Assembly: GCF_900327775.1 (NCBI RefSeq) | Contig: NZ_OUMZ01000007.1 | Coordinates: forward strand, 1,599,606 to 1,663,605 | DNA length: 64,000 nt | DNA from: Roseovarius sp. EL26 | GTDB lineage: Bacteria; Pseudomonadota; Alphaproteobacteria; Rhodobacterales; Rhodobacteraceae | Direction: 5' to 3' | Part shown: positions 7,995 through 59,375 of the stretch, piece after piece | How the letters are laid out: each line of letters starts with the position of its first letter | Position numbering within the stretch: the stretch's first letter is position 1 | The notes under the pieces: generated by a model | What the model saw: the letters and a program-made list of their open reading frames with translations, nothing else | Database searches by the model: none | What the model was told of the DNA's origin: nothing | Made by a program: the position numbers and the translations under genes

Positions 7995-9449
7995 ATGAGA
8001 CGCCACCGCAACGTCAAGATCGTCGCCACATTGGGCCCCGCCTCTGAGACTTATGAAAGCATCCGTGCACTGCATGAGGCTGGCGCTGATGTGTTTCGTC
8101 TGAACATGAGCCACGGCAGCCACGATTCTATTGCAGAGAAACACCGCATCATCCGCCAGATCGAAGATGAGCTGGACAGCCCGATTGCGATTTTGGCTGA
8201 CCTTCAGGGGCCCAAACTGCGTGTTGGCACCTTTGCCAATGAGGCCGAAGAGTTGGTGTCCGGCGCGGCATTCCGCCTTGATCTGGATGAGACACCGGGC
8301 GATGCAACCCGCGCATGCCTGCCCCACCCTGAGATTTTCGCAGCCCTTGAACCCGGCGCTAGCCTGCTGGTTAATGACGGTAAAATCCGCTTGCGCGTCA
8401 CGACTTGTGGCTCAGATTTCGCCGAGACCGAAGTGGTCATTGGTGGTACGATTTCGAACCGTAAAGGTGTGAACGTTCCTGATGTGGTGCTGCCATTGGC
8501 CGCTCTGTCAGACAAAGACCGTGCCGATCTGGAGTTTGTTTGCGAGTTGGGTGTGGACTGGCTGGCGCTTAGCTTTGTGCAGCGCCCTTCGGATGTTGAG
8601 GAAGCACGCGAATTGGTGAAAGGCCGCGCGGCTGTTCTGAGCAAGATTGAAAAACCATCGGCCGTTGAAAGCTTCTCTGACATCCTTGCCGTATCTGATG
8701 GCATCATGGTGGCCCGTGGTGATCTGGGGGTTGAACTGCCGGTGCAAAACGTGCCGCCCATTCAAAAACGTCTGGTTCGCAAATGTCGTGCCGCTGCAAA
8801 ACCGGTGATCGTGGCCACGCAGATGTTGGAATCGATGATCGAAAGCCCGATGCCCACCCGCGCCGAAGTCAGTGACGTGGCGACCGCAATCTATGAAGGC
8901 TCAGACGCCATTATGCTATCGGCGGAATCTGCCGCGGGCAGCTACCCGGTGGAAGCTGTCACCACTATGGACAATGTCGCCCGAGAGGTTGAGACCGATC
9001 CAACCTATCGCGAGGTGATCATGGCATCGCGCAAGGTTGAACGCACAACTGTGGCCGAGGGCATCGTTTCTGCCGCGCGTGAGATCGCCGAAGCCACCGA
9101 TATCAGCTCAATCTGTTGTTACACGCAATCGGGCACCACGGCCCTGCTGATTGCGCGTGAACGCCCACAGGTGCCAATTCTGGCGCTCAGCAGCCTGCGC
9201 ACCACCGCCCGCCGTCTGGCGCTGAGCTGGGGTGTGGATTGCGTGATGAGCGAGGAGCTGGGTCGCTTCAAACATGCGGTCATTGGCGCCGCCCGTGCGG
9301 CCCGTTCTCATGGCTATGCCACCGAAGAAAGCCAGATCGTTGTCACCGCCGGTGTGCCGTTCAATGTGCCGGGCACCACAAACATTCTGCGGGTGGCCCC
9401 ATGTCAGGAAAGCCTGATCTATCCCAATGAACCTGACGACGGTGAATAA
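7995..9449 (+). CDS. pyk: Pyruvate kinase
   Basis: 484 residues, the usual length. Converts phosphoenolpyruvate and ADP to pyruvate and ATP, the last step of glycolysis and of the Entner-Doudoroff route that roseobacters use. Seen: KIVATLGPAS at the N-terminus, the substrate-loop RLNMSHGSHDS, LADLQGPKLRVG, the active-site LSKIEKPSAVE and MVARGDLGVELP, and the signature VIVATQMLESMIESP. The B-domain (about residues 75-165) and the C-terminal allosteric domain are both present. Followed after 123 bases by rpmI. Control by CceR is suggested by the site at 7894. Confidence 0.97.
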   Translation: MRRHRNVKIVATLGPASETYESIRALHEAGADVFRLNMSHGSHDSIAEKHRIIRQIEDELDSPIAILADLQGPKLRVGTFANEAEELVSGAAFRLDLDETPGDATRACLPHPEIFAALEPGASLLVNDGKIRLRVTTCGSDFAETEVVIGGTISNRKGVNVPDVVLPLAALSDKDRADLEFVCELGVDWLALSFVQRPSDVEEARELVKGRAAVLSKIEKPSAVESFSDILAVSDGIMVARGDLGVELPVQNVPPIQKRLVRKCRAAAKPVIVATQMLESMIESPMPTRAEVSDVATAIYEGSDAIMLSAESAAGSYPVEAVTTMDNVAREVETDPTYREVIMASRKVERTTVAEGIVSAAREIAEATDISSICCYTQSGTTALLIARERPQVPILALSSLRTTARRLALSWGVDCVMSEELGRFKHAVIGAARAARSHGYATEESQIVVTAGVPFNVPGTTNILRVAPCQESLIYPNEPDDGE

Positions 9450-45927: not shown

Positions 45928-46292
45928 GGCCAAGTCTCCGTCGAAACGAGAGGATTAGAAACCTCAATCCCGTTGGTGATCGAGAAGATCGTCTCGTCTT
46001 CGTCATTTCGCGGGAAGCTGACCTGATCAACATTGCCAAATTGATCGGGCTGCAAAGGCAGCAAACCCAGTTTTTCAAAGTTAATCTCGGCCAAATCACG
46101 CAAACGATCAGGGCGGTTAAGATAGGCCCACTCAGCATTTAACACGCGCAAACGTGCACGCGCTTGACTGATCTGACGCTGAACGCGTTCCGCTTCGGCC
46201 TGCACAGTTTGGGTTTTGTAATTCTCGTGATAAGCCCAAAAGGCCAAAGCAATCACCGCGCAGGCTGTAAATACATAAAACAGGCTTCGCAT
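45924..46292 (-). CDS. ftsL: Cell division protein FtsL
   Basis: 122 residues. One N-terminal membrane segment (YVFTACAVIALAFWAY), then a coiled-coil (ESYKTQTVQAEAERVQRQISQARARLRVLNAEWAYL-like stretch, residues about 25-65) and a short C-terminal tail. It joins FtsB and FtsQ. Weakly conserved as a family, but size, topology and place between rsmH and ftsI make the call safe. Start and stop overlap both neighbours. Confidence 0.92.
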   Translation of the reverse strand: MRSLFYVFTACAVIALAFWAYHENYKTQTVQAEAERVQRQISQARARLRVLNAEWAYLNRPDRLRDLAEINFEKLGLLPLQPDQFGNVDQVSFPRNDEDETIFSITNGIEVSNPLVSTETWP

Positions 46293-47284
46293 CAGTGCGC
46301 CCCTTTCAACTGTGGCATGCCAATGGCTTTGCGGTCGGTTTTCCCCGCTGGTGCATCCGTACGGATCGCCACCCGCAAACGTGAACTGCGCGAGCGCGGA
46401 TTTTCTGCGAGTTCTTCTGGATCAGGGCCGATGGCCTTACGGTTTTTCAATTCGAACTGTGGCAGTTCCTGCACCATTTGAGGCGCATGGCGGCTCCCTT
46501 GACCAGACTTACCTGCGCGGGCCTGCAAGAAGCGCTTAACCATACGGTCCTCGATCGAATGGAAGGTCACCACTGCCAACTGACCACCAGGTTTAAGCAC
46601 ACGCTCTGCCGCCTCAAGCCCAGCAACAAGTTCGCCATACTCATCGTTCACAGCGATACGGATCGCCTGAAAGCTGCGTGTAGCAGGGTGGACCTGCCCC
46701 GGTTTCGGACGTGGCAGGCATTTCGCGACCACTTCGGCCAATTGCAACGTCGTCTTGAAGGCTTCAATCTCGCGCGTTTTGACGATTGCTCGCGCAATAC
46801 GGCGACTGGCGCGTTCTTCTCCATAAAGATACAGGATATCAGCCAGTTCCGCCTCGGAAGCCGTATTCACTAGATCAGCCGCATCCGGGCCATCCTGGCT
46901 CATCCGCATGTCCAGTGGGCCATCGCGCATAAAGGAAAAGCCACGTTCAGAGAGATCTAACTGCATCGATGACACACCCAGATCAAGCACAACACCGTCC
47001 GCTTCACTGGCGTATTCATCCATTCGTGAAAATGTGCCCTGTACCAGCTCAAGTCGGCCGCCGTATTCAGCGGCCCAGTCCTGCGCCATCGTCAATGCCA
47101 ATGGGTCGCGATCTACACCCACAACCTTGCCAGCACCATCTTGCAACAATGCACGGGTGTATCCGCCAGCGCCCAGCGTCCCATCCAGCCACAAGCCGGA
47201 AATTGGCTTCACCGCTGCAATCAAAGGACGCAGCAGAACCGGAATGTGTGATGAAGTATCGGGGCCATGGGCAGCTGTTGCCAT
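46292..47284 (-). CDS. rsmH: 16S rRNA (cytosine-1402-N4)-methyltransferase
   Basis: 330 residues, formerly MraW. Methylates C1402 of 16S rRNA with S-adenosylmethionine. Seen: [15 protein letters not shown] at the N-terminus, the SAM loop [43 protein letters not shown] and [19 protein letters not shown] eight bases before the ATG at 47284 fixes the start four bases after the mraZ stop. Confidence 0.97.
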
Positions 47285-47288
47285 CCGC

Positions 47289-47792
47289 TTATTCCCCTTT
47301 TGCACCATCAAGATAGATTAACGGGTCGAAATCATCTGGCAGATCCTCAAGCCAGGCTTCGGTTTTGGCCAGCTCTTCTTGCTCGTATGTTTCGGGTTTC
47401 CAGATCTGGAACGTATCGCCAGCGGCAATAAAGAACGCCTCTTTGTCCAACTCGACCTTCTGCCGCAGCTTTGCAGGCAGAACCAGACGCCCTGTTTCAT
47501 CGACAGTGGTTGGGAATGATTGACCGTGGAACAGACGTTGCAACATCTTGCGCTCCATTGAGCCACGCGGAAGCGCGTCGATCTTTTCGTCCACCTCTTC
47601 GATGGCCTCAATAGTGTAGCATTCCAGATAATTGCGGCGGTGATCACCATAAACGATCACCAACTCGGGGGTATCTCCATCGCGCCAGTTGGGGTCAGAT
47701 GCCTCCAGCACACGGCGAAAAGAGGCCGGGATAGACACCCTGCCCTTCGCATCCACCTTGTGGTGGCTTTCACCTCTGAACCTTCGACCCAC
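47289..47792 (-). CDS. mraZ: Transcriptional regulator MraZ
   Basis: 167 residues from a GTG at 47792. Two AbrB/SpoVT-like swapped-hairpin domains: [27 protein letters not shown] and [21 protein letters not shown], each with the DxxGRxxxP core. MraZ oligomers bind tandem TGGGN repeats in their own promoter and repress the dcw operon in E. coli. AAGGA and GAGGG stand upstream of the GTG. The frame stays open 31 codons further to a TTG, but MraZ proteins begin at RRFRGE, so that part is leader. First gene of the cluster. Confidence 0.95.
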
Positions 47793-47847
47793 TGTCCTTG
47801 GCCCTCTGCTTACCCCGGGTTCAATCCCAGGAAAATTCTTACCTCTA

Positions 47848-47892
47848 GAAACGAAACGGCGGACTGAGCTGCTGCCACTGCCCAATCCGCCG
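47848..47892 (-). terminator. Internal terminator of the mraZ leader
   Basis: On the minus strand CGGCGGA (47892-47886) pairs with TCCGCCG (47863-47857) across 22 bases, followed by TTTCGTTTCT. It lies 56 bases before the mraZ GTG. Partial termination here would release a leader RNA and lower dcw transcription. Confidence 0.6.
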
Positions 47893-48055
47893 CCCTCGTC
47901 CCGCTATGCGGGGTGTCCGATCACACGCACCATCTGGGGGGATGTCTGCTCGCTCGCGCGCCGGATCTCTTTGTTCTGATGAAGCGCGGGGCCTGTATGA
48001 AACCTGACTTGGGAGTTTTTTATCTAGCGGGGTCTGCGCCCCTTATCCCGTCCTC
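47848..48055 (-). ncRNA. Putative UpsM-like small RNA in the mraZ leader
   Basis: The predicted promoter near 48062 is about 260 bases before the mraZ start, close to the uncommonly long mraZ leader described for Rhodobacter sphaeroides, which yields the sRNA UpsM of about 206 nucleotides. Here a hairpin followed by TTTCGTTTC would end an RNA at about 47848, giving close to 207 nucleotides. Several GC-rich hairpins lie inside (CCCGC-ATA-GCGGG near 47902-47914). Sequence identity to UpsM could not be checked; ends are inferred. Confidence 0.55.
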
Positions 48056-48061
48056 ATCGTG

Positions 48062-48111
48062 TATATAGGGATGACATGGGAATTCATGGAAATCAAGGAT
48101 AAATTATGGGA
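48062..48111. promoter_or_regulatory. Probable mraZ promoter with 10-bp-phased TGGGA array (MraZ operator)
   Basis: TATATA at 48062-48067 can serve as the -10 element for leftward transcription; no good -35 is seen. On the plus strand, five units start exactly ten bases apart: AGGGA at 48067, TGGGA at 48077, TGGAA at 48087, the degenerate GGATA at 48097 and TGGGA at 48107. E. coli MraZ binds TGGGN repeats spaced by five bases, which is the same ten-base period. The array covers the -10 to upstream part of the promoter, so bound MraZ would block polymerase. Confidence 0.65.
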
Positions 48112-48175
48112 ATTACCTACATCATGTAGTTTCAAGGGTGGATGAAAATCAAGATAATGCGCCCAATTCACTCAA

Positions 48176-48184
48176 TTATCCACA
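48176..48184 (+). promoter_or_regulatory. Perfect DnaA box
   Basis: TTATCCACA, the consensus DnaA box, lies in the AT-rich DNA about 110 bases upstream of the predicted mraZ promoter. No second strong box is seen. Confidence 0.55.
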
Positions 48185-48201
48185 CAATATAGATTAATAT
48201 G

Positions 48202-48216
48202 TACCATGAAATACCA
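48202..48216 (-). promoter_or_regulatory. Paired MraZ-type box (TGGTA-TTTCA-TGGTA)
   Basis: Two TGGTA units ten bases apart on the minus strand, with the spacer TTTCA that recurs in the box at 48413-48427. Confidence 0.45.
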
Positions 48217-48248
48217 CATAAGGTGTTACAAAAATTCACTCAAATTCT

Positions 48249-48263
48249 TCCCATAAATTCCCA
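48249..48263 (-). promoter_or_regulatory. Paired MraZ box (TGGGA-ATTTA-TGGGA)
   Basis: Two exact TGGGA units separated by five bases on the minus strand, a full match to the TGGGN-N5-TGGGN operator form of E. coli MraZ, about 460 bases upstream of the mraZ start. Confidence 0.55.
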
Positions 48264-48412
48264 GTTTTTTCAAAATTTTCACTTCCACACTTCAAATTCA
48301 CGATGATTCCATGAAAATTTACTGATTAATCAAGTGCAAATTATCAATTTTACTCTTTGATGCGTGATTCGAAGCCATGAACAAATAAAAATGGCGACAA
48401 GAATAGAATTTG

Positions 48413-48427
48413 TGCCATGAAATCCCA
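48413..48427 (-). promoter_or_regulatory. Paired MraZ-type box (TGGGA-TTTCA-TGGCA)
   Basis: Two TGG units ten bases apart on the minus strand with spacer TTTCA. A related half, TTTCA-TGGAA, lies at 48307-48316. Confidence 0.45.
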
Positions 48428-48482
48428 CAGCACAGTTAAATCAGCAATCGTAAAGAATTCTCAATACTGAGAAACGCGTCGC

Positions 48483-48992
48483 TCAGACGTTTTCACCAAG
48501 CCATTTGTACATCACTCGTGCGTCCACAAGGCCGTGCTCAGGATGTTGAAATGCCAGTGGCAACCTCCCAACCGTATCAAACCCCAATCTTTCCCACAGG
48601 CGTACAGCGCCGACATTGGTCTCCACCACGCAGTTGAACTGCATCGCCAGATAGCCAAGGTTGCGTGCCTCAATCTGCGAATGGAGACACATCAGTTCGG
48701 CAACCCCACGACCGCGTGCTGAGGGGGCCACCACATAACCACAGTTGCACACGTGCGCCCCACCACCTGCTTGGTTGGTTTTGATAAAATAGGTTCCGAT
48801 AACCCCGCCTGCGTCTTCAACAACGTAGCTTGCGCGCGGGGCGTCCATCCACAAATCCTGCACGGCGACACGCGACAGCTGCGTATCGAGCGCATAGGTA
48901 TCACCGGCCCGGATCACATCGCGCAAAATCGGCCAGACCCGGTCAAAATCGCTCTCTCGTGAAAGACGTATTGTTGGTTGCGCCTGTGTCAT
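48483..48992 (-). CDS. GNAT N-acetyltransferase
   Basis: 169 residues of the GNAT fold. Seen: IRLSRESDFDRVWPILRDVIRAGDTYALD at the start (as in phosphinothricin/ribosomal-type members), the acetyl-CoA loop VAPSARGRGVAELMC and the C-terminal NVGAVRLWERLGFDTVGRLPLAF. Acetylates an amine of unknown identity. GGGGGA about nine bases before the ATG at 48992 sets the start. It transcribes toward mraZ, with the 690-base control region between. Confidence 0.87.
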   Translation of the reverse strand: MTQAQPTIRLSRESDFDRVWPILRDVIRAGDTYALDTQLSRVAVQDLWMDAPRASYVVEDAGGVIGTYFIKTNQAGGGAHVCNCGYVVAPSARGRGVAELMCLHSQIEARNLGYLAMQFNCVVETNVGAVRLWERLGFDTVGRLPLAFQHPEHGLVDARVMYKWLGENV

Positions 48993-49151
48993 CACACCGA
49001 TTCCCCCGTGCATCGTGCGTTCCATGACCATCTTAAGCGCTCCTTTAACTCGCAATTACAATCGAAACATTTCTTCAACCTGACAGAAATCAGGTTGAAA
49101 CATGATGTTTCTACTTTCGGATTCCAGAATTTCTCAGATCCGGAGGCGGTA

Positions 49152-49724
49152 ATGAAGCTCGATAAATCAGGCATATTCGGCAAAAGTAAGACAGCACGCG
49201 TGCCAATGACAGAAAAATCGGCATGGGTTCGAAAACAAAGTTCAGCTGACGCCACGTCACTCAAACACTTCTTTTCCAAGCTTTCCCCGCTGGCCTTATA
49301 TTACCGTTTCATGTCCCCTCTTACCAACGTGCCACCACACATCTTTGAGCTGCTGTGCGACCTTGATCCACAAAGGCATGTGTCCTTTGTTGTCGAAGGC
49401 ATTAACGATGATGGTCCAGCAGTGATTGGCGAAGGCCGTTATGTACGCGATGACGGTACTGAAACCCGCGCCGAATTCGCCCTTTCCATTGCTGAAGGTT
49501 GGCGCGGTCAAAGGTTGGCCTCCACCCTTATTACCCAGCTCGAACAACATGCCCAAGCCAACGACATCCACACCTTTTGGGCAGAGGTGCTGGTCGAGAA
49601 CGCCCCAATGCTTAGTCTGGCACGCAAATTTGGCTATGACGTCACCCCAGATCGCAATGATCCGCGCTGCAAGATCGTATCAAAACACATCTCAGTGTCA
49701 GCTCGCACAAAAAAGGCCGCGTAA
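49152..49724 (+). CDS. GNAT-like acetyltransferase domain protein
   Basis: 190 residues. After a basic N-terminus (GIFGKSKTARVPMTEKSAWVRKQ) comes LKHFFSKLSPLALYYRFMSPLTNVPPHI, the segment that precedes the GNAT domain in the acetyltransferase part of Pat/AcuA-like protein acetyltransferases, then FALSIAEGWRGQRLASTLITQLEQHA (acetyl-CoA loop) and NAPMLSLARKFGYDVTP. It may acetylate protein lysines; no cyclic-nucleotide or ligase domain is attached. GGAGG before the ATG at 49152. Ends in a shared terminator with acuI. Confidence 0.8.
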   Translation: MKLDKSGIFGKSKTARVPMTEKSAWVRKQSSADATSLKHFFSKLSPLALYYRFMSPLTNVPPHIFELLCDLDPQRHVSFVVEGINDDGPAVIGEGRYVRDDGTETRAEFALSIAEGWRGQRLASTLITQLEQHAQANDIHTFWAEVLVENAPMLSLARKFGYDVTPDRNDPRCKIVSKHISVSARTKKAA

Positions 49725-49741
49725 CCGCGGCCTCCTTTTCA
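49711..49741. terminator. Bidirectional terminator between GNAT gene and acuI
   Basis: Stem AGGCCGCG / CGCGGCCT with loop TAAC; T run CCTTTTC on the plus side and six T on the minus side. The GNAT stop codon lies in the loop. It ends both converging transcripts. Confidence 0.92.
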
Positions 49742-49756
49742 ATTTATTCGTGCTGT

Positions 49757-50749
49757 TCAGGCGTTAACGTCAACCACAACACGACCCTGAACTTGACCTT
49801 GCAGAATATCTGCGCCCAATTGCGGTAAATCCGACAGGGTTGCAGGTTTGATCATCGCCTCTAGCTTGTCCATCGGCAGGTCCTTGGCAATCCGCTGCCA
49901 CGCACGCACGCGGTTGTCATAGGGCTGCATGACGCTATCGATACCCAACAGGTTTACACCGCGCAGCAGAAAGGGGATCACGGTCGCGGGCAGGCCAGCA
50001 CCACCGGCAAGGCCTACAGCTGAAACCGAAGCACCGTATTTCATCTGGCCCAAAACCCGCGCGAGCATGGCACCACCAACAGCATCCACACAGCCCGACC
50101 AGCTTTCAGCCTCTAACGGGCGTTTAGTGGTCTCATTCAGCTCTTCACGCGCCACAATCTGTGTGGCCCCCAGTGCTGTCAGATACTCAGCCGTATCAGG
50201 GCGACCGGTGACGCCAGCCACTTCATAGCCAAGGTTGGCCAGAATAGCCGTGGCAACCGAACCAACGCCGCCCGCAGCACCCGTAACCAGAACAGGGCCG
50301 TTACCTGTGGTCAGTCCGTGATCTTCCAGCGCCATCACCGCCAGCATCGCGGTAAACCCAGCGGTACCAACGGCCATTGCCTGGCGCGCATCCAATCCGT
50401 CCGGCAGTGGCACCAGCCAATCTGCTTTGACGCGGGCCTTTTGCGAATAGCCACCCCAATGTGCCTCACCGACGTGCCAGCCGGTCAGGACAACCTTATC
50501 GCCGGGTTTGTAGCGATCATCGCCGCTGGCCTCGACAGTACCGGCAAAATCGATCCCCGGAATATGCGGGTAGTTGCGCACCAAACCGCCACCGGGCCCG
50601 ATGCACAGGCCGTCCTTGTAGTTCACTGTTGAATACTCAACCGCCACAGTAACTTCGGCATTTGGCAGATCATCCAGCCCGATCTGTTTGACTGCCGCGG
50701 CTGTTTTGCCGCTCTCTTCGTCTTTATCGACAACCAATGCGTTGAACAT
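49757..50749 (-). CDS. acuI: Acrylyl-CoA reductase AcuI
   Basis: 330 residues of the medium-chain dehydrogenase/reductase superfamily. AcuI reduces acryloyl-CoA to propionyl-CoA with NADPH, which detoxifies acrylate made from DMSP. Seen: MFNALVVDKDEESGKTAA, YSTVNYKDGLCIGPGGGLVR, GIDFAGTVEASGDDRYKPGDKV and the nucleotide fold VLVTGAAGGVGSVATAILANLGY. No zinc ligands, as expected for this branch. ATG at 50749 has GGAGA six bases upstream; a second ATG five codons earlier is less well placed. It follows dmdA by 62 bases, the same order as in Ruegeria pomeroyi. Confidence 0.94.
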   Translation of the reverse strand: MFNALVVDKDEESGKTAAAVKQIGLDDLPNAEVTVAVEYSTVNYKDGLCIGPGGGLVRNYPHIPGIDFAGTVEASGDDRYKPGDKVVLTGWHVGEAHWGGYSQKARVKADWLVPLPDGLDARQAMAVGTAGFTAMLAVMALEDHGLTTGNGPVLVTGAAGGVGSVATAILANLGYEVAGVTGRPDTAEYLTALGATQIVAREELNETTKRPLEAESWSGCVDAVGGAMLARVLGQMKYGASVSAVGLAGGAGLPATVIPFLLRGVNLLGIDSVMQPYDNRVRAWQRIAKDLPMDKLEAMIKPATLSDLPQLGADILQGQVQGRVVVDVNA

Positions 50750-50811
50750 ATCTTTCTCCGTCATGATTTCTTCGCTCTTATCTCAAACAGAGGCTCATCC
50801 CCCTGCCCGAC

Positions 50812-51918
50812 TTATTTCCAAAAACTGGCTTGAACCGATGCATCCCGCATGCCCTCATGCGTTTCCACCTCAAGCGCTATGCCAGCGTCCCAATGGCTAC
50901 GCTCAACCATCCCAATGGCCACGTTGGTCTCAAAATCCGGTGACCACGCGGCCGAAGTGACCTGCCCCACCTGCTGACCATCGGCAAACACCGGCCAGGC
51001 CCGGTCACAGCCCGGTATCACGCCTTCAATCGCGATAGGGCGGATCATTTGGCGGCTTCCCGCCTCCAGCTCTTCACGCAGCGCACGTCCGCCAAAGCAC
51101 GTCTCCAGACGCCCCCCGTTCACATACATCCCCAACCCACATTCTAGCGGCGTGTTGGCGCGGGTCATATCATTGCCATAGCTCAGCAATCCGCCCTCAA
51201 TACGCTCGATCAGGTTCGGCCCACCCGCGCGCACTTGCAGCTCTTCGCCCTCGGTAAACAGCGCATTCCAAAGCGGCATGGCCAATTCGTTATTGTCGAC
51301 ATAAATCTCGAACCCACCCTGCTTAGAGTACCCAGAACGTGAAATCAGAAACTCATGCCCCTCAAAGGCAAACTTCTTGCAGCCGAAAAACCGCAGCGCT
51401 CGCACATCCTCGCCGAACACGCGCGACATCAGCTCATTCGCCATCGGGCCTTGAACGCCCAAGGGTGAAACCTTCGGTTCGCTCACTTCGACATCTAAAC
51501 TGTTGCAAGCCGCGATGGCATTCACCCACATCAGGACATCGCTATCCGCGATTGAAATCCAATAGGTGTCAGGCCCCGCCTCAATCAGCACCGGATCATT
51601 CAGCATGCCACCATTCTGATCGGTCATCGGAATGTACAAACACCGCTCAGCACTCATCTTGCTCAGATCGCGGGGTGTCAGCAGTTCCACCAGTCGCAGG
51701 GCGTCCGGCCCTTTGATCTGCACCTGCCGTTCACAGGACACATCCCAGATCTGAACATGTGTCTTGAGATGACGACAGTCTTCTTCAACACTGTTGAACA
51801 TCGTTGGCAACAGCATGTGATTATAGACAGTATAGGCCTGAATTCCGGCGGCTTCGACCCCGTCAGAAAAAGGCGTCCTGCGCACCCGGCGCGAGGGTGA
51901 TAAAAGAGGCGTGTTCAC
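50812..51918 (-). CDS. dmdA: DMSP demethylase DmdA
   Basis: 368 residues, a GcvT-family enzyme that moves a methyl group from dimethylsulfoniopropionate to tetrahydrofolate, giving methylmercaptopropionate. The N-terminal SRRVRRTPFSDGVEAAG and YTVYNHMLLPT, the central KQGGFEIYVDN and the LLSYGNDMTRANTPLECGLG segment agree closely with what I remember of roseobacter DmdA rather than with glycine-cleavage GcvT. Length is normal. The start is a GTG at 51918 with GGAG nine bases upstream. Co-transcribed with acuI and probably with DUF2182-DUF1326 upstream (46-base gap). Confidence 0.93.
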   Translation of the reverse strand: MNTPLLSPSRRVRRTPFSDGVEAAGIQAYTVYNHMLLPTMFNSVEEDCRHLKTHVQIWDVSCERQVQIKGPDALRLVELLTPRDLSKMSAERCLYIPMTDQNGGMLNDPVLIEAGPDTYWISIADSDVLMWVNAIAACNSLDVEVSEPKVSPLGVQGPMANELMSRVFGEDVRALRFFGCKKFAFEGHEFLISRSGYSKQGGFEIYVDNNELAMPLWNALFTEGEELQVRAGGPNLIERIEGGLLSYGNDMTRANTPLECGLGMYVNGGRLETCFGGRALREELEAGSRQMIRPIAIEGVIPGCDRAWPVFADGQQVGQVTSAAWSPDFETNVAIGMVERSHWDAGIALEVETHEGMRDASVQASFWK

Positions 51919-51964
51919 GTCACGAACTCCATTAGGTTCAGTTGTGTCTTAAATTACAGCCCGG

Positions 51965-52672
51965 TTACTTACCCGGACCACTCCAATCAATCGGGCAGAT
52001 TTCTGCGGACTTTCCGCCAAAGTCCCAAACCCGGCCAAAGTCGCGTACGCGCGATTTCAGGCCTTTTGCCGCGATGATATCTGGCCCCATCCAGTATTTG
52101 GAATTACTCACCATCACCGGATGATCCGGGCTGGCGCCTTCGATCATCTCAATCTCACCTTGGATTTTCCGGCCAATTGACAGACTGCGCTTTTTGCCAT
52201 CGCGCACAATATCGACCCTGTGGCGCTCTGCCCCGATGATCTCGCTCACCAGCATGGTAAACAGACCCGTAGTCCCCCCAGCCTGTCCCGAAAAGATCTG
52301 CAAAATCCCATTGTAGGCCTTGCCGCTGGCACGTTCATCAACGTAGGCCGCAACCTTCCAGTTACCTTCTCCCATGCGGCCTGGAATATCGACCAGAAGA
52401 CCGACATTCAGCCCACTCAGGTCTTCACCCTCATAATGGCCTTCGTCAATCGCGATGCCCATCCACGCATGGCAGTGGCCTTCTGTGGGGGGATGCTGCC
52501 CCAAAGACACCACGCAGGGGCAAAACAGCTCACAAGAGCAGTTCAAAAACAGCTCTCCCTTGATGGCCCAATCCGTCGGACTGGCCTGACGCCGTTTTGG
52601 GTTCGGCATCCGGTTATCAATCCGCTGCGAGACCGGCAGCTTATCCGCGTTTTCCTTGCGCTGTAATGCCAT
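51965..52672 (-). CDS. DUF1326 cysteine-rich protein
   Basis: 235 residues, no signal peptide. The N-terminal GELFLNCSCELFCPCVVSLGQHPPTEGHCHAW holds five cysteines and two histidines in a metal-site pattern typical of DUF1326. The rest is a beta-rich body (WKVAAYVDERASGKAYNGILQIFSGQAGG). Function unknown; families with this motif travel with DUF2182 membrane proteins. GGAGG seven bases before the ATG sets the start three bases after the DUF2182 stop, so the two are coupled. Confidence 0.85.
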   Translation of the reverse strand: MALQRKENADKLPVSQRIDNRMPNPKRRQASPTDWAIKGELFLNCSCELFCPCVVSLGQHPPTEGHCHAWMGIAIDEGHYEGEDLSGLNVGLLVDIPGRMGEGNWKVAAYVDERASGKAYNGILQIFSGQAGGTTGLFTMLVSEIIGAERHRVDIVRDGKKRSLSIGRKIQGEIEMIEGASPDHPVMVSNSKYWMGPDIIAAKGLKSRVRDFGRVWDFGGKSAEICPIDWSGPGK

Positions 52673-52675
52673 GTG

Positions 52676-53494
52676 TTATCCTCCGTTCCACAGCGGTGTG
52701 CTCAACACGGTCACACCACCCAATATCAATATGACGCCCATCGGCCGTGTCACACGGTGGCCGATTTGCGGTAATTTTTCCAGCACCATGAACAAGGTCG
52801 CCAAACCCATCCATAGCAGATTCATCACACCACCAACAAAACCAAGCGCCATAAAGCCCCAGCAGCAGCCAACGCAAAAGGCCCCTAAACCCAGCCCCAT
52901 ACGCAGCCCGCCCTTGAACCCTGTGCGCCAGTGGCCCAGGAAATAGGTCATCGGGCTGTGACACACCCCGTGGCACAGTTCCTTGGTCCGGGTGAACTGA
53001 AACGCGCCCACCGCCAGTAGCAGCAGCCCGGCAAACAGGGGCGTCTTGGAAATGCCCAGCATGTCGACCACGCCGCCAAACAACAGGCCCAGCTGCACGC
53101 CAGTGATCAACGCAGCAAAGCCGACCCAGACAATGCCATAGCCCAGCAGCACGCCCAGCCAGCCGATCCAGCTGCCATTGGCGCTGAGCATCAGGTCTTC
53201 GTAACTGCGCAGGGTTGGCACCAAGGTCGGCAACATCATCGCCGCCATCATCACCGCCCACATCACGAACAGCGGGCCAAAATTGGCCATCGGCATATAC
53301 ATATCCATGCGCGGGTCCATGTTGCGCATCATCTCGCCCTGCATGCCCGGTCGGCCAATCAGGTCAAGATCCATATCCACGGCCATGGCGTACATCATCC
53401 ACCATGCCGCCAGAATGGCCGCAAAGAACGTCAGCCACAGCAGGTTTCTCGCCGGATATGACAAAATCATCTGCAAGGTATATCTCCATACCAC
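52676..53494 (-). CDS. DUF2182 metal-binding-like membrane protein
   Basis: 272 residues with six or seven membrane segments. Between the first two lies a methionine-rich loop (residues 51-69: eight Met in nineteen residues), then FVMWAVMMAAMMLPT, the signature of DUF2182. Cys/His pairs CHGVCHSP and CVGCCW are further candidate metal sites. Methionine plus cysteine ligands suggest a soft metal such as copper, but this is inference. GTG at 53494 has AAGG eight bases upstream; an ATG at 53470 is the alternative. First gene of the operon that ends in dmdA-acuI. Confidence 0.85.
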   Translation of the reverse strand: MVWRYTLQMILSYPARNLLWLTFFAAILAAWWMMYAMAVDMDLDLIGRPGMQGEMMRNMDPRMDMYMPMANFGPLFVMWAVMMAAMMLPTLVPTLRSYEDLMLSANGSWIGWLGVLLGYGIVWVGFAALITGVQLGLLFGGVVDMLGISKTPLFAGLLLLAVGAFQFTRTKELCHGVCHSPMTYFLGHWRTGFKGGLRMGLGLGAFCVGCCWGFMALGFVGGVMNLLWMGLATLFMVLEKLPQIGHRVTRPMGVILILGGVTVLSTPLWNGG

Positions 53495-53516
53495 GATTCG
53501 CGCCTTGCAACTTAAA

Positions 53517-53525
53517 TGTCAGACA
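53517..53525. promoter_or_regulatory. Candidate GntR/FadR-type operator TGTCAGACA
   Basis: TGTC-A-GACA is a perfect nine-base palindrome of the TGT-N3-ACA kind bound by FadR-type GntR regulators. It lies in the 47 bases between the divergent gntR gene and the DUF2182-dmdA operon, so one bound regulator could control both. Confidence 0.6.
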
Positions 53526-53541
53526 ATTAAAAGTAAGACAA

Positions 53542-54282
53542 ATGAAATCGAACAGTACACGCAAACCCGACCTCTCGGCTCAGATCGCCCAGGCGATCCG
53601 AGATGCCATCATGTCCGGCCAAATGATCGTAGATGAACGGCTTCCGTCCGAAGCAGAACTCGCCGAGCAATTCCAAGTCTCTCGTCCTACCGTGCGTGAG
53701 GCGTTGAAACGTCTGGCGGCACAATCACTGATCCGCACCGAACGTGGTGCCTTTGGTGGGGCTTTTGTCAATCGCCTCAGCTATGAAGAGGCCTATAGCC
53801 AGCAGATCACCACCTCGACGCTACTTCTCAGCATGAATACCGTCAGCTTCGCCACCGCTTGTGAGGCGCGCTATGCCTTGGAACGAGCCTGTACGCGCTT
53901 GGCTGCAGAACGTCGCACGCCAGATCATCTGGCCGCCATGCGCGCCGAAACCCACCGTCAGGCCCAGCCGGGCCTCAGCGATGAATGCTTCTGTGCCTCC
54001 GATGTGGCCTTTCACCGCGCGCTGGTTGACGCCACTGACAATCCGGTGCTGCGTTACCAACTGGCAGGCGCGGTCGAGGCCATGCAACCGCTAATGAACA
54101 TGATCACCTTCACTGCCCGGTCTCGTGAGGAAATCGTCCGCCTGCACAATCGCATCGCCGACGCAATCGAGATGCAAGACCCCGAAACCGCCAGCGCCAC
54201 GCTATCAAAACTTGAGGCTTACACGCTGGAACTGGGTCAGAACGTCATGGCTGAACGAGCCCAAAAGCGCGACAGCGCCTGA
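53542..54282 (+). CDS. GntR-family regulator, FadR subfamily
   Basis: 246 residues. N-terminal winged helix: LSAQIAQAIRDAIMSGQMIVDERLPSEAELAEQFQVSRPTVREALKRLAAQSLIRTERG, the classic GntR signature. The C-terminal all-helical FCD domain carries AFHRALVDATDNPVL and LHNRIADAI, with metal-binding residues. The ATG at 53542 gives the family's length; the frame extends a further 109 codons over the DUF2182 gene, which is an artefact. Divergent from DUF2182-DUF1326-dmdA-acuI, so it is the likely regulator of DMSP demethylation here, responding to a DMSP product such as acrylate or propionate derivative. Confidence 0.92.
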   Translation: MKSNSTRKPDLSAQIAQAIRDAIMSGQMIVDERLPSEAELAEQFQVSRPTVREALKRLAAQSLIRTERGAFGGAFVNRLSYEEAYSQQITTSTLLLSMNTVSFATACEARYALERACTRLAAERRTPDHLAAMRAETHRQAQPGLSDECFCASDVAFHRALVDATDNPVLRYQLAGAVEAMQPLMNMITFTARSREEIVRLHNRIADAIEMQDPETASATLSKLEAYTLELGQNVMAERAQKRDSA

Positions 54283-54306
54283 ACATCATCCTTTAGAAAC
54301 AACGCC

Positions 54307-54498
54307 TCACTCAAGCGCGCGCGCTTCATCCAACAGCATGATTGGAATACCGTTGCGGATGGGAAAGGCCATATTAGCCTTGTCCGAAATCAGCTCCTGC
54401 GCGCTGGCATCATAACGCAGCGTGCTGTGGGTCTGGGGGCAAATCAACGCCTCCAGCATCCGACGGTCAAAGGCGGGGGATGTCAGCGCATCGCTCAT
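54307..54498 (-). CDS. Trm112-family small protein
   Basis: 63 residues, with [41 protein letters not shown], the YcaR/Trm112-like fold. Here only one cysteine of the usual four metal ligands remains. Eukaryotic Trm112 activates methyltransferases; the bacterial role is unclear. The ATG overlaps the LON-domain gene stop by four bases. Confidence 0.88.
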
Positions 54499-55139
54499 TG
54501 CATGATCTCCGTTTCGCCACCGCTGCGCAGGGCGTATTCTATCAGTGTCACCAAAGTCTCGCGTCTGGTACTCAAAGACGGAGCCTCCAACAAGGCCTGC
54601 TTGTCCTCTGGCTCAAACCCCAACAGCATCGACAGGGAATTGACCAGCAATTCATCATCAGCATCCTTTAAGGTTTCCCAATCTGTCTGTAATTCGCGCG
54701 CCTCAAAATATCGCGCCAGCAGGTCCATAAAGGCCCCGCGATTAAACAGCGTATCTGCATCCTGCGGCCCCATATCACGCTCAAATCCGGCCCAAGACAC
54801 GCGCGCCCGACGGTAAGGCGTGAACCCTTCGACCTCGTCCTCAATCCGAAAGCGTGAGATCCCCGATAAGGTGATCATATAACGTCCATCTTCGGTTTCC
54901 GAAAACTGTGTCACCCGCCCTGCACAGCCAATGCACTGCAGGCCAGTGCCCACACGTCCCGGCACCTCATTAGGCTGAATCATCCCAATCAGCCGCCCCG
55001 GTATTTTGAGAACATCATCAAGCATCGCCAGATAACGCGGCTCAAACAAATGCAATGGCAAACGCGAGCGCGGCAGCAACAAAGCCCCCGGCAGCGGGAA
55101 AAGCGGAAGGATCTCTGGTAGGTCAGCCTGATGGAACAT
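54495..55139 (-). CDS. LON substrate-binding domain protein
   Basis: 214 residues: only the N-terminal LON domain of the Lon protease ([38 protein letters not shown], then [26 protein letters not shown]). No ATPase or protease domain follows. Free-standing LON-domain proteins are common in alphaproteobacteria; function unknown, perhaps a substrate adaptor. Lies 27 bases after the thioredoxin gene and overlaps the Trm112 gene. Confidence 0.9.
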
Positions 55140-55166
55140 AAAAGCTAATCTAACCTGTTTTTCCGA

Positions 55167-56078
55167 TCAGGCAAATATCATTGAACTCAACTTACGCCGA
55201 CCGTTTAACACAATCGGATCGTTGGGCTTGAGCGCATCAAACAACGTGAACAGCTGCTGTCTGGCCGCGTCATCATTCCATTCACGATCACGGCGGAACA
55301 GCTCCAGCAATTCATCAACTGCTTCTTGTGTCTGGCCAGCAGCGTGAAGCGCCTGCGCCAGATCAAACCGCGCTTGATGATCATCGGGGTTCGCAGTGAC
55401 CGCGGCCTGCAGCTCGCCGACCGGGCCAGCATTAGCCGCCTGTTTCGCCAGCTCGATTTGCGCGTGGGCTGCTTCCAGCTCGGGCGCGTTTGAAATTTCG
55501 GCAGGTGCACCGTTCAAAATCGCCTCGGCCTGATCCAAATCGTCCAGCGCAACATGGGATCGCACCAATCCGGCGTAGGCCGGGGCGTTCTGCGGGTCTT
55601 CTTCCAAAATCGCGGCAAAGGTTTGCGCGGCATCTGCGGCTGCTCCCTCTTCCAGCATTTCCTCGGCCGCGGCCACGGCCTCGTCCAGCCCACCGCTGCT
55701 GTCACCGCCCGAAGCGACAATCACACGTTCAATAAAAGCCTCAATTTCCGAGGGCGGCTGTGCCCCCTGAAAACCATCAATCGGCTGCCCCTGCCAAAAG
55801 GCATAGACCATTGGCACCGACTGCACCCGCAGTTGGCTGGCAATCATCTGGTTTTCGTCAACATTAACCTTGGCCAGCTTGACCGCGCCTTTGGCTTTGG
55901 TAACGGCGGCCTCGATCGCGGGGATTAGGGTTTTGCAAGGGCCGCACCAAGGGGCCCAGAAATCCACAATCACCGGAACCGTTTGCGAGGTCTCAATCAC
56001 CTCGACCATGAAATCGGCCTCGGATACGTCCTTGATCAGGTCGGTGGCTGGTGGGGTTTGTCCGCCAAGTTCAAGCAT
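55167..56078 (-). CDS. Thioredoxin-TPR protein (CnoX/YbbN type)
   Basis: 303 residues. An N-terminal thioredoxin domain with WAPWCGPCKTLIPAIE (active CGPC) and the cis-Pro in VQSVPMVYAF, then TPR-like repeats to the end (AAQTFAAILEEDPQNAPAYAGLVRS, LQAAVTANPDDHQARFDLAQALHAAG). This is the layout of CnoX (YbbN), a chaperone and redox protein that hands clients to GroEL; E. coli YbbN has lost the CGPC pair, this one keeps it. AGGAG eight bases before the ATG at 56078 sets the start; the frame extends six codons to a TTG. Confidence 0.93.
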   Translation of the reverse strand: MLELGGQTPPATDLIKDVSEADFMVEVIETSQTVPVIVDFWAPWCGPCKTLIPAIEAAVTKAKGAVKLAKVNVDENQMIASQLRVQSVPMVYAFWQGQPIDGFQGAQPPSEIEAFIERVIVASGGDSSGGLDEAVAAAEEMLEEGAAADAAQTFAAILEEDPQNAPAYAGLVRSHVALDDLDQAEAILNGAPAEISNAPELEAAHAQIELAKQAANAGPVGELQAAVTANPDDHQARFDLAQALHAAGQTQEAVDELLELFRRDREWNDDAARQQLFTLFDALKPNDPIVLNGRRKLSSMIFA

Positions 56079-56151
56079 GTTTCGCGCTCCTGACAATGGT
56101 GTCGTTCAATTTGAAGGTTACATGGCGTAGCGCGCCTTAGGTTGCAAGACC

Positions 56152-56445
56152 TCAGTTCGCAAATGGCAGGGGCAAACACCCCGGCAATCCTGCAGGCAAC
56201 ACCAGTCGCCCGCCGGATTGATAAAGTGACCAACCAAGATCGGGCCCTTCACCGCGAATGGCCAGCCAGAAAAGCCCCCCGCCAACCAAAGCAGCATTGT
56301 CCGGTAAACGGGCTGCGAAGTCCGCCGCTGGAAACAGAACAATCGCCCCCGGCGCCGCGTCGGTCAACATCGCGACCGAGGCCAGTACGACAATCCAGCC
56401 GACAAACACCGCCACCAGTGCGCCAATCCAATGCCTAATAGTCAT
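56152..56445 (-). CDS. Small secreted or membrane protein, unknown
   Basis: 97 residues from the ATG at 56445 (MTIRHWIGALVAVFVGWIVVLASVAML), with one membrane segment and a second weakly hydrophobic stretch (AALVGGGLFWLAI). Not recognised. Its ATG lies inside the end of the preceding gene (11-base overlap), so it is the fourth gene of the operon that starts with the FAD oxidase. Confidence 0.62.
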   Translation of the reverse strand: MTIRHWIGALVAVFVGWIVVLASVAMLTDAAPGAIVLFPAADFAARLPDNAALVGGGLFWLAIRGEGPDLGWSLYQSGGRLVLPAGLPGCLPLPFAN

Positions 56446-57490
56446 GGATATGTTCCAGCCACAGCGCCCCCTGATCCATTTCGCGCAGGATGCTAGCCAG
56501 ATCCGCAACCTTTACCATGATCAGATGTCGGTGGTCGCCATATCCCTGCCGCGCAAAACTGTGCAGCGCGCCAGAAGCCTCAGCCTGCGCTGAGATTGCG
56601 GTGAACATGATATCGTCATTGCCTGCAATCTCGACAAACTCGCCGCCCTCATCCGCCATCTGTTTCAGCAGATAGGTCAATTCGCGGTAGCGCGGCGTCT
56701 CAATCTCTGTTCCTTGCGCATGTCGGGTAACCACCTCTACACCATCAATCGAGGTCAGCACCTCGTCTGGCAACCCACTCACAATCATCCGCAAGCGCAA
56801 CTCATCTGCACCCACAGTCGCCACCGCCTGTTCGATCACTTCTGCGTATGCGGCCTTGGCTTTGTATTCCAAACCCAGCGCCAGGCGCCGCTCTGTATCG
56901 CGCAAAACACCTGATGCGTTCTCGCTCAACGCTGCAGCATCAGCGCGAAAACCCCATTGATACCACGGCACCTGTTGAAGGAAATTGGCATAATCTGCCG
57001 CCTGCTGCGCTGACAAATCATCCAGCGGTGCGCGGGTCTCCCCCCGGAACCATGTAGCAACCCGCCCCAATGTTTCCTCGTAGGCAGCTTTGGCCAGTAA
57101 CTCGGCGGTAAAGCTCACCCCAATGACATAGACCATCTGCTTGGTTTCCCCCGGAAACCCACCATGATCAGCCGACGCATAGGATAGCTCACACAGAGAC
57201 GACCAAAAGCCACGGATCTCCTGCCAGTATCCGAATTCATGCGGATCTCCGGTTTCAATCACCTTGGCGTAATCATCATAAGCATGCACGATGTGCCATT
57301 CCGGATAGGTCAGCAACGTGCGCGATTCTGCGCGGTGCTGATCAGACGGCAGAATCGCAATATAGTCATTGTCGATAGGGCTTCGGACACAGGCCAGCTC
57401 GTTATAGCCCACAGGCATCGCCAAACCGACAACTGCCAATAGCAGCAGCAGAACAGCACGTTTCAACCATTTCCACAGCCTGCGCATCAT
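56435..57490 (-). CDS. Membrane-anchored protein of unknown function
   Basis: 351 residues with a single N-terminal membrane segment (WLKRAVLLLLLAVVGLAMPVGY), so the body is periplasmic. Not recognised. Notable stretches are TLLTYPEWHIVHAYDDYA, YWQEIRGFWSSLCELSY and QVPWYQWGF, rich in aromatic residues and possibly helical. A C-terminal DHRHLIMVKVADLASILREMDQGALWLEHIHDY reads as a compact sheet-helix module. The first ATG overlaps the stop of the preceding gene (ATGA). Conserved context only: oxidase, four-segment membrane protein, this, small membrane protein. Confidence 0.7.
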   Translation of the reverse strand: MMRRLWKWLKRAVLLLLLAVVGLAMPVGYNELACVRSPIDNDYIAILPSDQHRAESRTLLTYPEWHIVHAYDDYAKVIETGDPHEFGYWQEIRGFWSSLCELSYASADHGGFPGETKQMVYVIGVSFTAELLAKAAYEETLGRVATWFRGETRAPLDDLSAQQAADYANFLQQVPWYQWGFRADAAALSENASGVLRDTERRLALGLEYKAKAAYAEVIEQAVATVGADELRLRMIVSGLPDEVLTSIDGVEVVTRHAQGTEIETPRYRELTYLLKQMADEGGEFVEIAGNDDIMFTAISAQAEASGALHSFARQGYGDHRHLIMVKVADLASILREMDQGALWLEHIHDY

Positions 57491-57891
57491 ACTTTCCACC
57501 AACGCAAACCGGACCACAATGCAAAGGCCCCCATGGCGATATGCGGCAGATTGGCGAGAAACCGAACAAGGGTAAAAGACATTCCCGCAGACGGATTGGT
57601 GAAGATCGCCAGATCAAGATAGCCATAGCCGGTGAAGATGCCAAAAACACCATCTCCCAAATAAAGCGCACCAAATATCACCAGAAAGATCGTGCAGGCA
57701 CGCGCCCCCATGATCACCGCCGTCAGCGCCCATAAAGCTGACGCGAGGTGCAACGCATCGTCATATGGATCCAGCGCAAAGATACCAAAAGCCAGCCCCT
57801 GATCATCTGTCAGACCGGGAATATAGTTCAGTGACGCTGCAATCAGCAGCGCAATGAAATAGCCAAAGCTGATAATCCGTAAAATGCTCAT
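57487..57891 (-). CDS. Four-segment membrane protein (DUF4383-like)
   Basis: 134 residues with four membrane segments (IISFGYFIALLIAASLNYI, LHLASALWALTAVIMGA, TIFLVIFGALYLGDGVFGIF, LANLPHIAMGAFALWSGL). The pattern of His and Asp at membrane borders (DALHLASALWA, LPHIAMG) resembles DUF4383 proteins, though I am not certain. Start overlaps the oxidase stop as ATGA. Confidence 0.7.
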   Translation of the reverse strand: MSILRIISFGYFIALLIAASLNYIPGLTDDQGLAFGIFALDPYDDALHLASALWALTAVIMGARACTIFLVIFGALYLGDGVFGIFTGYGYLDLAIFTNPSAGMSFTLVRFLANLPHIAMGAFALWSGLRWWKV

Positions 57892-59375
57892 AACGCACCC
57901 ATGTAGTTATCCCATAAACCATTGCGGAAAGTCAGATCGGGGTCGAGCTGTCTTTTTGCCAAAGCAAAGCGCGCCGCCCCCGGATAAGCGTGATGAAACT
58001 GCTCACTCGTCGCGTGTGGGCGGTAAGGCAGATAGTAGGTCCCACCGATATCGGTAATCCGATCGATCAATTCCCGCGTCACCCGCGCCATATCCGCCTC
58101 GGCTCGTGCCGTCATTTCCTGGCTGAACGACATCACGGCCGCTATCCGCGGCGCTGGTGCATAGGTCAGCCAGCTGTCCGGGTCGTGATCAATAAACCGC
58201 AACGTGACATTCAAAAACTCCTGATAAGAGGCAGGAATCACCTCTTGGCAGACGGCAATGAAATCACCAAATCGCTCAGGACTGACAAAATACTCGTGCA
58301 AAATGTCCGTGCGGTTTGGGTCACGGTCATCCAGCGTCACAACCGGCTCATTGATCAAACTGTTGCGCGTCGCGATACCGCTGCTGATCCGTGGGGCCAG
58401 ATCGGTTTCCGTCCACCAGCGCAAGCGCTTCATCCGCTCATGACCCAACTGTGCGCGGTAAACATGACTTGCCAGTTTCGACACCATGCCCGACCCACTG
58501 GCAGGCGGCAGATCTGTCTGATCCTCAGTTGCACGGTAGGTGATCATCAAGGCATGCTCAAAGAATCCGGCGCGATCCACATTCAGGCGGCCGTAAGCCA
58601 TGTTGACCACCCCATCTGACAATGCCTCGACAAACCGCGTGCCAAACTCCTGCACAGGCATTTCTGTATAGGTCGGCTCGAGCCGTTTGTTTGGCTCAAT
58701 CTCAACCTCCATCCGGGTGATAGCACCGGTTAGACCGTACCCCCCCATGGTCATCCCAAAGAGATCGGTATTTTCATCCCGAGAGCAATCCACCAACGTG
58801 CCGTCCGGCAAGACCATCTCAAACCGCCGCACAGTGGCTCCCATCGGACCATGTTTCACCGGCCAGCCATGCGCGTTCACGCAAAACGTCGCCGCTACAC
58901 CGAAGTCATTGTTGGATTGCATCACCTTGGGGCCGTATCTCAAAGGATCCAGCGCCGCGATCACTTGCGACCAACGCGCCCCGGCATGGACCTGCATCAA
59001 TCCCTTATCGATGTCCGGATCCAGCCAACCATTGTCAAATGTGATCGCATGCCCATCCCGAGGGATCGCCTGCCCGCCCATCGAATGCCGCGCAGCACCC
59101 ACGTTCACTGGGCGCCCCTCCGCCCGAGCCTCTTTGATCTCGGCGCGCAAAGCCGCGACAAGCACATCATTGGGGTCATCTTGCAGGACCCTATGGCGAA
59201 AAATCGGCGTTTCGCTTAACCCACTGGCATCGTTGAGCGTGCTGACCTGTCCTGCAGGGGCCAGACTCTGTGTGCCATCCAGAACCGGAGTTGCGGCAGA
59301 AAACCGTTTGACGGCCCATCCCCCCAACACGGCTCCTCCACCAAACAAAGCAGCGCGTCTTGTGATTTTTCTCAT
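57888..59375 (-). CDS. Tat-exported FAD-binding oxidoreductase (sugar lactone oxidase-like)
   Basis: 495 residues. A twin-arginine leader (ITRRAALFGGGAVLGGWAV) sends the folded flavoprotein to the periplasm. The N-terminal FAD domain shows PVNVGAARHSMGGQAI, VHAGARWSQVIAAL and GVAATFCVNAHGW, followed by GMTMGGYGLTGAITRMEVEI; the C-terminal part ends in an ALO-like domain (YLPYRPHATSEQFHHAYPGA). It resembles aldonolactone/alditol oxidases that pass electrons to oxygen, but the substrate is unknown. GGAGG seven bases before the ATG at 59375 fixes the start. First gene of a four-gene overlapping operon. Confidence 0.88.
   Translation of the reverse strand: MRKITRRAALFGGGAVLGGWAVKRFSAATPVLDGTQSLAPAGQVSTLNDASGLSETPIFRHRVLQDDPNDVLVAALRAEIKEARAEGRPVNVGAARHSMGGQAIPRDGHAITFDNGWLDPDIDKGLMQVHAGARWSQVIAALDPLRYGPKVMQSNNDFGVAATFCVNAHGWPVKHGPMGATVRRFEMVLPDGTLVDCSRDENTDLFGMTMGGYGLTGAITRMEVEIEPNKRLEPTYTEMPVQEFGTRFVEALSDGVVNMAYGRLNVDRAGFFEHALMITYRATEDQTDLPPASGSGMVSKLASHVYRAQLGHERMKRLRWWTETDLAPRISSGIATRNSLINEPVVTLDDRDPNRTDILHEYFVSPERFGDFIAVCQEVIPASYQEFLNVTLRFIDHDPDSWLTYAPAPRIAAVMSFSQEMTARAEADMARVTRELIDRITDIGGTYYLPYRPHATSEQFHHAYPGAARFALAKRQLDPDLTFRNGLWDNYMGAL

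Follow-up and report, generated by a model that had tools for sequence, protein, structure and literature searches.

The dmdA-acuI operon of Roseovarius sp. EL26 (Rhodobacteraceae), which encodes the dimethylsulfoniopropionate (DMSP) demethylase and an acrylyl-CoA reductase, was analysed in a 64,000-nucleotide stretch of contig NZ_OUMZ01000007.1 (positions 1,599,606 to 1,663,605; assembly GCF_900327775.1), hereafter the window. Here the known operon is extended by two genes for a DUF2182 and a DUF1326 protein, predicted to form a copper module, and by a divergent gene for a predicted GntR-FCD regulator with a putative operator. The four genes follow one another on the minus strand in the order DUF2182, DUF1326, dmdA and acuI, with intergenic gaps of 3, 46 and 47 bases. 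The arrangement of pair, dmdA and acuI is real across the family and is not described in the available parts of the open-access literature examined. The explanation that we favour, with moderate confidence, is a GntR-controlled operon whose Cu(I)-handling module would be co-induced with the catabolism of DMSP and acrylate. The original prediction, made from the letters of this DNA alone, had described this gene order, the gaps of 3 and 46 bases, CHxxCH/CxxCC and methionine-rich motifs and the divergent GntR gene, all of which were borne out by the open reading frames (ORFs) and by family scores.

Among 295 genomes sampled from the family, dmdA was found in 116 (E ≤1e-120), DUF1326 in 151 and PF09948, the family of the DUF2182 protein, in 156; all 151 genomes with DUF1326 also carried PF09948. 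Besides the window's own locus, 116 family dmdA loci were examined, one genome contributing two. In 96 of these, the pair precedes dmdA on the same strand, so that its absence beside dmdA in all relatives, a possibility raised in the original prediction, is excluded. A divergent GntR gene is also present in 77 of the 96 pair-bearing loci; across all 116, GntR is divergent in 83 and acuI lies downstream in 93. At the genome level, dmdA and DUF1326 are associated with an odds ratio of 15.7 (p = 1.6e-23; this and the other co-occurrence statistics ignore kinship), and the association between dmdA and the pair exceeds chance. The pair was not found nearby in the other 20 loci, at least one of which (L073) ends at a contig edge. 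The pair was present in 13 of the 22 named loci with dmdA, L054, on a contig titled Rhodospirillales, being a named locus that has it. The closest named genome found, that of Roseovarius albus, has the same pair, dmdA and acuI, with a DmdA 92% identical to that of EL26. Outside the family, no intact pair was seen in 14 dmdA loci with flanks of up to 1.5 kb; in L324, from another family, a decayed DUF1326 remnant (about 1287-1498) stands directly before dmdA.

The spacing between DUF1326 and dmdA forms three groups, of 8-298 bases (40 loci), 511-781 bases (49 loci) and 1464-1668 bases (7 loci). A DinB-family gene (PF05163) was recognised in 31 of the 49 loci of the middle group and an AMP-binding ligase in 4 of the 7 loci of the widest, both counts being lower bounds given the simple ORF caller used. 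In relatives such as L042, L071 and L172, genes for a photolyase, a class V aminotransferase, a cyclopropane-fatty-acid synthase and a BCCT transporter recur near the operon (50, 44, 32 and 30 loci, respectively); none of these is listed beside the operon in the window.

The interval between the GntR gene and the first operon gene holds a conserved site, TGTCNGACA. The 104 GntR intervals compared comprised the window, 11 named loci, 82 family dmdA loci and 10 others, taken from 108 loci with a GntR match of at least 200 bits, a few loci being counted twice under two names (e.g. L040/L062 and L042/L089). With at most one mismatch, TGTCNGACA occurs in all 104 intervals and it is exact in 90, compared with 6.3% and 0.05%, respectively, of shuffled intervals. 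It is found at this stringency in 96/96 intervals in which the pair comes first (85 exact) and in 8/8 in which dmdA comes first (five exact). Two sites are present in 87 intervals, spaced by 15 bases in 61 of them. Across 362 internal operon gaps, no exact copy and seven copies with one mismatch were counted. Because the site sits behind GntR whichever gene leads, and exact copies are missing from the internal gaps, a single regulator probably drives the pair and dmdA-acuI together, and we regard one operon under this GntR as very likely in loci of this layout. The original prediction had asked about a separate promoter or terminator between DUF1326 and dmdA; none was seen in that gap, where a sigma-70 and terminator scan gave no site, but the scan gave none before DUF2182 either and, with totals of 3 and 5 against shuffled means of 2.1 and 4.4, lies near the shuffled level and says little. 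No Rfam family matched window positions 46000-58000. A further exact TGTCNGACA core is present in the window at 8506-8514.

The DUF2182 protein of EL26 displays CHGVCH (C174-H179) and CVGCC (C207-C211) sites and a methionine-rich stretch, and the DUF1326 protein carries CxCxxxCxC plus C67, with no signal peptide seen by eye. Residues M78, M82, M86, M87, C174, C178, C207, C210, C211, M215 and M224 of DUF2182 are conserved at 0.94 or above in 139 proteins of gene order A and five of order B, and C45, C47, C51, C53 and C67 of DUF1326 occur in every protein compared from both gene orders (145 and 6). This conservation of methionines and cysteines fits a soft-metal path that would end on the cysteine cluster, and we think it likely that the two proteins act on a soft metal, copper being the probable one. 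The CHxxC form with a methionine-rich first part accounts for 58 of 137 DUF2182 genes, a CLxxC form with few methionines for 61 (two of them in order B), and the remaining 18 belong to neither class or were unread. At least ten methionines in the first 75 residues were counted in 56/58 proteins of the first class and 3/61 of the second, and the methionine-rich loop was therefore rejected as a defining trait. The methionine-rich CHxxCH form emphasised by the original prediction is thus present here and represents one of two main classes, covering under half of the genes; it is the Met/Cys core that is near-invariant. DUF2182 and DUF1326 appear to move as a unit, since their divergence is correlated (r = 0.72, 75 loci), but not with that of DmdA.

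Structure prediction gave a helical model for DUF2182 with a predicted local distance difference test score (pLDDT) of 82, for which a fold search returned no PDB match at E ≤0.001 and a PDB sequence search a single chance-level match (E = 0.37). The DUF1326 model reached a pLDDT of 85.6, and no sequence relative was found in the PDB. In the open-access literature, subscription journals being outside the scope, no paper was found naming DUF1326, DUF2182, COG5588, PF09948 or PF07040. The EL26 genome has a second pair, with DUF1326 first and of the other subfamily (L212, contig C5, 5986-7639), around which no dmdA or acuI was recognised within 12.6 kb.

Exact copies of the 12-mer TTGTCWGACAWT are limited to four places in the EL26 genome, namely at this operon, 82 bases before a gene for an SBP56 protein, about 75 bases ahead of where an acyl-CoA ligase gene probably starts, and inside an unrelated ORF (C6:298921), the last being set aside because it falls within an ORF. 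We hand-picked 34 SBP56 loci and, for the ligase search, 56 genomes, and read 30 of 59 ligase matches. Of these 30 relatives, 7 have the exact operator core no more than 300 bases before the ligase (p = 8e-8 against other ORFs); of the 34 SBP56 loci, among them that of EL26, 4 have it no more than 400 bases before SBP56 (p = 5e-4 against other ORFs). For other ORFs, the count over 300 bases is 8 of 927, two of which are DinB-family and ligase genes beside dmdA. On these counts, a wider GntR regulon is plausible but patchy. The EL26 ligase shares 54% identity with the one encoded next to dmdA in L165 and best matches the acyl-CoA synthetase subfamily PRK08162 in NCBIfam. Its identification as a canonical DmdB is unsupported, the 3-(methylthio)propionyl-CoA ligase model scoring 310.7 against a cut-off of 822; among solved chains, 6ihk and 6ijb, labelled AMP-binding domain protein and presumably DmdB, rank fourth and fifth.

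The SBP56 gene of EL26 lies on another contig (C1); its product scores 589.5 bits against a cut-off of 34 for PF05694 and shows no evident signal peptide by eye. Downstream follow a 219-residue membrane protein without a Pfam match and two Lin0512-family genes (L247, 2684-5509 with the SBP56 gene), and a protein similar to the former also comes after SBP56 in L255, L268 and L279. SBP56 lies near the pair in two family genomes, at a distance of about 1 kb in G043 and about 4 kb in G240, and in G066 it directly follows dmdA at a site where the pair is not present. G003, in which no dmdA was detected at the threshold, has a close relative of the GntR placed between SBP56, about 1.5 kb away, and an adjacent, divergently oriented acyl-CoA dehydrogenase gene (L279, 2986-8148); the interval that separates it from the dehydrogenase gene contains a TGTCNGACA site. 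In genomes lacking dmdA, SBP56 occurs more often when the pair families are present (15/51) than when they are absent (11/128; p = 8e-4).

Three known systems bear on this locus. In Ruegeria pomeroyi, DMSP and acrylate are reported to induce dmdA-acuI (SPO1913-SPO1914; Todd et al. 2012, PMC3338564), and acuI directly follows dmdA in all but two of 26 dmdA-bearing roseobacters (PMC3338564). EL26 shares this order of dmdA then acuI; the word GntR, however, is absent from that account and an upstream pair is unmentioned in the parts of it available, and the available parts of two further papers (PMC9769926 and PMC4334477) describe neither this regulator nor the pair. The only relative of DUF2182 for which we found a reported role, in sources available in part, is PpoB2 of Marinomonas mediterranea, for which copper transfer to a tyrosinase has been reported (PMC2855505). 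PpoB2 is a putative transmembrane metal-binding protein of COG5486, equated here with PF09948 by name, and is encoded in an operon with its enzyme; the EL26 operon has no tyrosinase, and a DUF1326 partner is unmentioned for M. mediterranea in the part of the paper available. Lastly, an SBP56 protein of Hyphomicrobium is reported to be a Cu-dependent methanethiol oxidase, encoded in a mtoX-SCO1-mauG cluster in which a copper chaperone gene is linked to it, methanethiol being a product of DMSP demethylation (PMC5739008, available in part); in EL26, the SBP56 gene is followed by the membrane protein and Lin0512-family genes instead of SCO1 and MauG.

The locus might work as follows. It would form a single GntR-controlled operon, DUF2182-DUF1326-dmdA-acuI, with the DinB-family gene inserted before dmdA in many relatives. 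The divergent FCD-type GntR would bind the paired TGTCNGACA sites before DUF2182 and be released by a DMSP or acrylate catabolite. From residue conservation and the PpoB2 precedent, we infer that the invariant Met/Cys residues of DUF2182 may carry Cu(I) across the inner membrane and that cytosolic DUF1326 may take it up on the CxCxxxCxC plus C cluster. Switched on with the pathway, the module would either load copper into an enzyme that needs it or keep copper under control during the formation of thiols and acryloyl-CoA. In strains that have SBP56, this methanethiol-oxidase-like protein would be the favoured client, an assignment that we hold to be doubtful. The most far-reaching version would make DMSP demethylation copper-coupled in much of the family. 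In it, dmdA-acuI, the acyl-CoA ligase and an SBP56 methanethiol oxidase located in the cytosol would share one GntR regulon with a pair dedicated to importing Cu(I) through DUF2182 and handing it to DUF1326, which would give sulfur-gas oxidation a cytosolic route of copper delivery. This version appears decidedly unlikely.

Several results weigh against this reading, beginning with the pair away from dmdA. In 35 such loci, hand-picked among the matches listed and defined by no dmdA match at E ≤1e-120, the pair is followed by acuI in 24; the other 11 comprise two that hold a dmdA missed by the threshold, two with acuI elsewhere and seven without acuI (one at a contig edge). A GntR match of at least 200 bits was found in just 8 of the 24 pair-acuI loci and in 12 of all 35, vs 77 of the 96 pair-bearing dmdA loci. 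Among genomes in which dmdA and acuI are separated, G128 and G001 have the pair with acuI, and G125, G056, G140 and G185 have it with dmdA. In view of the acuI-only loci, the split genomes and the GntR count, the pair travels with both dmdA and acuI, is exclusive to neither and can do without this GntR; a tie to dmdA alone is ruled out, and a tie to GntR everywhere is unsupported. The exact operator is missing from 30/34 SBP56 and 23/30 ligase loci, and the EL26 SBP56 protein falls far below the NCBIfam MtoX cut-off (NF052453; 117.4 vs 650 bits). Moreover, SBP56 is missing from 41 of the 100 genomes that combine dmdA with the pair families, and in dmdA genomes it is as common without the pair families (8/16) as with them (59/100; p = 0.59), which weakens SBP56 as a general client of the pair. 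In R. pomeroyi, a 350 bp fragment reaching into dmdA bore an inducible promoter (PMC3338564, available in part), whereas in EL26 the unit starts with the pair, which the predicted operator precedes; if R. pomeroyi has the pair, an internal promoter therefore exists in that organism. The suggestion of the original prediction that the metal pair serves DMSP or methanethiol handling thus gains indirectly from the operator shared with SBP56 and the acyl-CoA ligase in EL26 and some relatives and loses from the loci in which the pair leads acuI without dmdA and from the genomes without SBP56, so that its interpretation is, overall, partly supported.

The main competing explanation is that the pair protects rather than supplies, acting in copper, soft-metal or electrophile defence while acrylate and acryloyl-CoA form, with acuI as its true partner. 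It would account for the pair-acuI loci away from dmdA, for the two split genomes in which the pair stays with acuI and for the DinB-family gene so often inserted in the operon. The DinB fold includes thiol S-transferases. The acrylate sensitivity reported for acuI mutants of R. pomeroyi (PMC3338564, available in part) also agrees with it. Set against these are the four split genomes in which the pair stays with dmdA, a regulator of the GntR-FCD type, which is not a known copper sensor, and the studied relative of DUF2182, which supplies copper; we judge protection somewhat unlikely. The DUF1326 model, moreover, resembles an enzyme fold, that of acetoacetate decarboxylase, and no known metallochaperone, which counts against the copper-handling reading and would be expected if DUF1326 were an enzyme acting on a C3 or methylthio intermediate, with catalytic or structural cysteines and DUF2182 as its membrane partner. 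However, TM-scores to these folds are only about 0.4 at an identity of about 10%, a shared fold shows no function, and five cysteines invariant in both pair orders look like a metal or redox site, which makes an enzyme very unlikely.

Least probable, and in our view hardly credible, is a historical passenger lodged between the GntR promoter and dmdA without a functional link to DMSP or acrylate. The divergence of the pair is unrelated to that of DmdA, again a point against the favoured copper-handling operon (r = 0.07 and 0.04, 75 loci), and tracks DmdA, AcuI and GntR weakly at best (r from 0.04 to 0.18); the same slot is occupied by two sequence classes, and some dmdA loci do without the pair. 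A mere passenger is nevertheless difficult to reconcile with a pair kept in 96/116 dmdA loci, with acuI next to it in most of the loci away from dmdA, and with an operator kept at the promoter.

The features of the locus are compiled in Table 1. The DUF2182 family is named PpoB2, copper chaperone, in current Pfam. The start of this gene is uncertain, the listed GTG at 53494 having no evident ribosome site, while by eye TTG 53476 and ATG 53470, 18 or 24 bases downstream, are preceded by GGAG. The acuI product falls 17 bits short of the AcuI equivalog NF051456 (422.9 vs 440 bits), and three GcvT models stay under their cut-offs for the dmdA product. Downstream of acuI, two GNAT acetyltransferase ORFs overlap at their 5' ends (48483-49055, minus strand; 48978-49724, plus strand).

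Table 1 Features of the dmdA-acuI locus of Roseovarius sp. EL26 (window positions).
Feature	Position	Strand	Evidence
GntR-family regulator with FCD domain, 246 aa	53542-54282	+	PF00392 68.3 bits (cut-off 27), PF07729 78.5 bits (cut-off 24.3); both domains above cut-off
Second, degenerate predicted operator, two mismatches, 15 bases from the first	53532-53540		Same spacing in 61 of 87 two-site intervals
Predicted GntR operator TGTCAGACA, exact	53517-53525		Conserved-site search of GntR intervals
DUF2182/PpoB2 membrane protein, predicted Cu(I) carrier	52676-53494	-	PF09948 199.1 bits (cut-off 28.7)
DUF1326 protein, predicted cytosolic acceptor, five invariant Cys	51965-52672	-	PF07040 174.4 bits (cut-off 25)
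46-base gap between DUF1326 and dmdA	51919-51964		No operator, promoter-like or terminator-like match
dmdA, DMSP demethylase, GTG start	50812-51918	-	NF009133 570.6 bits (cut-off 410)
acuI, acrylyl-CoA reductase (YhdH family)	49757-50764	-	TIGR02823 448.4 bits (cut-off 297.25)

How marine sulfur is divided between the biomass of microbes and volatile gases is governed by dmdA, and the arrangement described here suggests that the DMSP pathway is linked to a step of metal handling that has not been studied. If a copper module and a common regulator do belong to the usual dmdA operon of this family, copper supply and the GntR ligand would be direct controls on the fate of DMSP, and a pathway could be assigned to two protein families on which hardly anything has been published.

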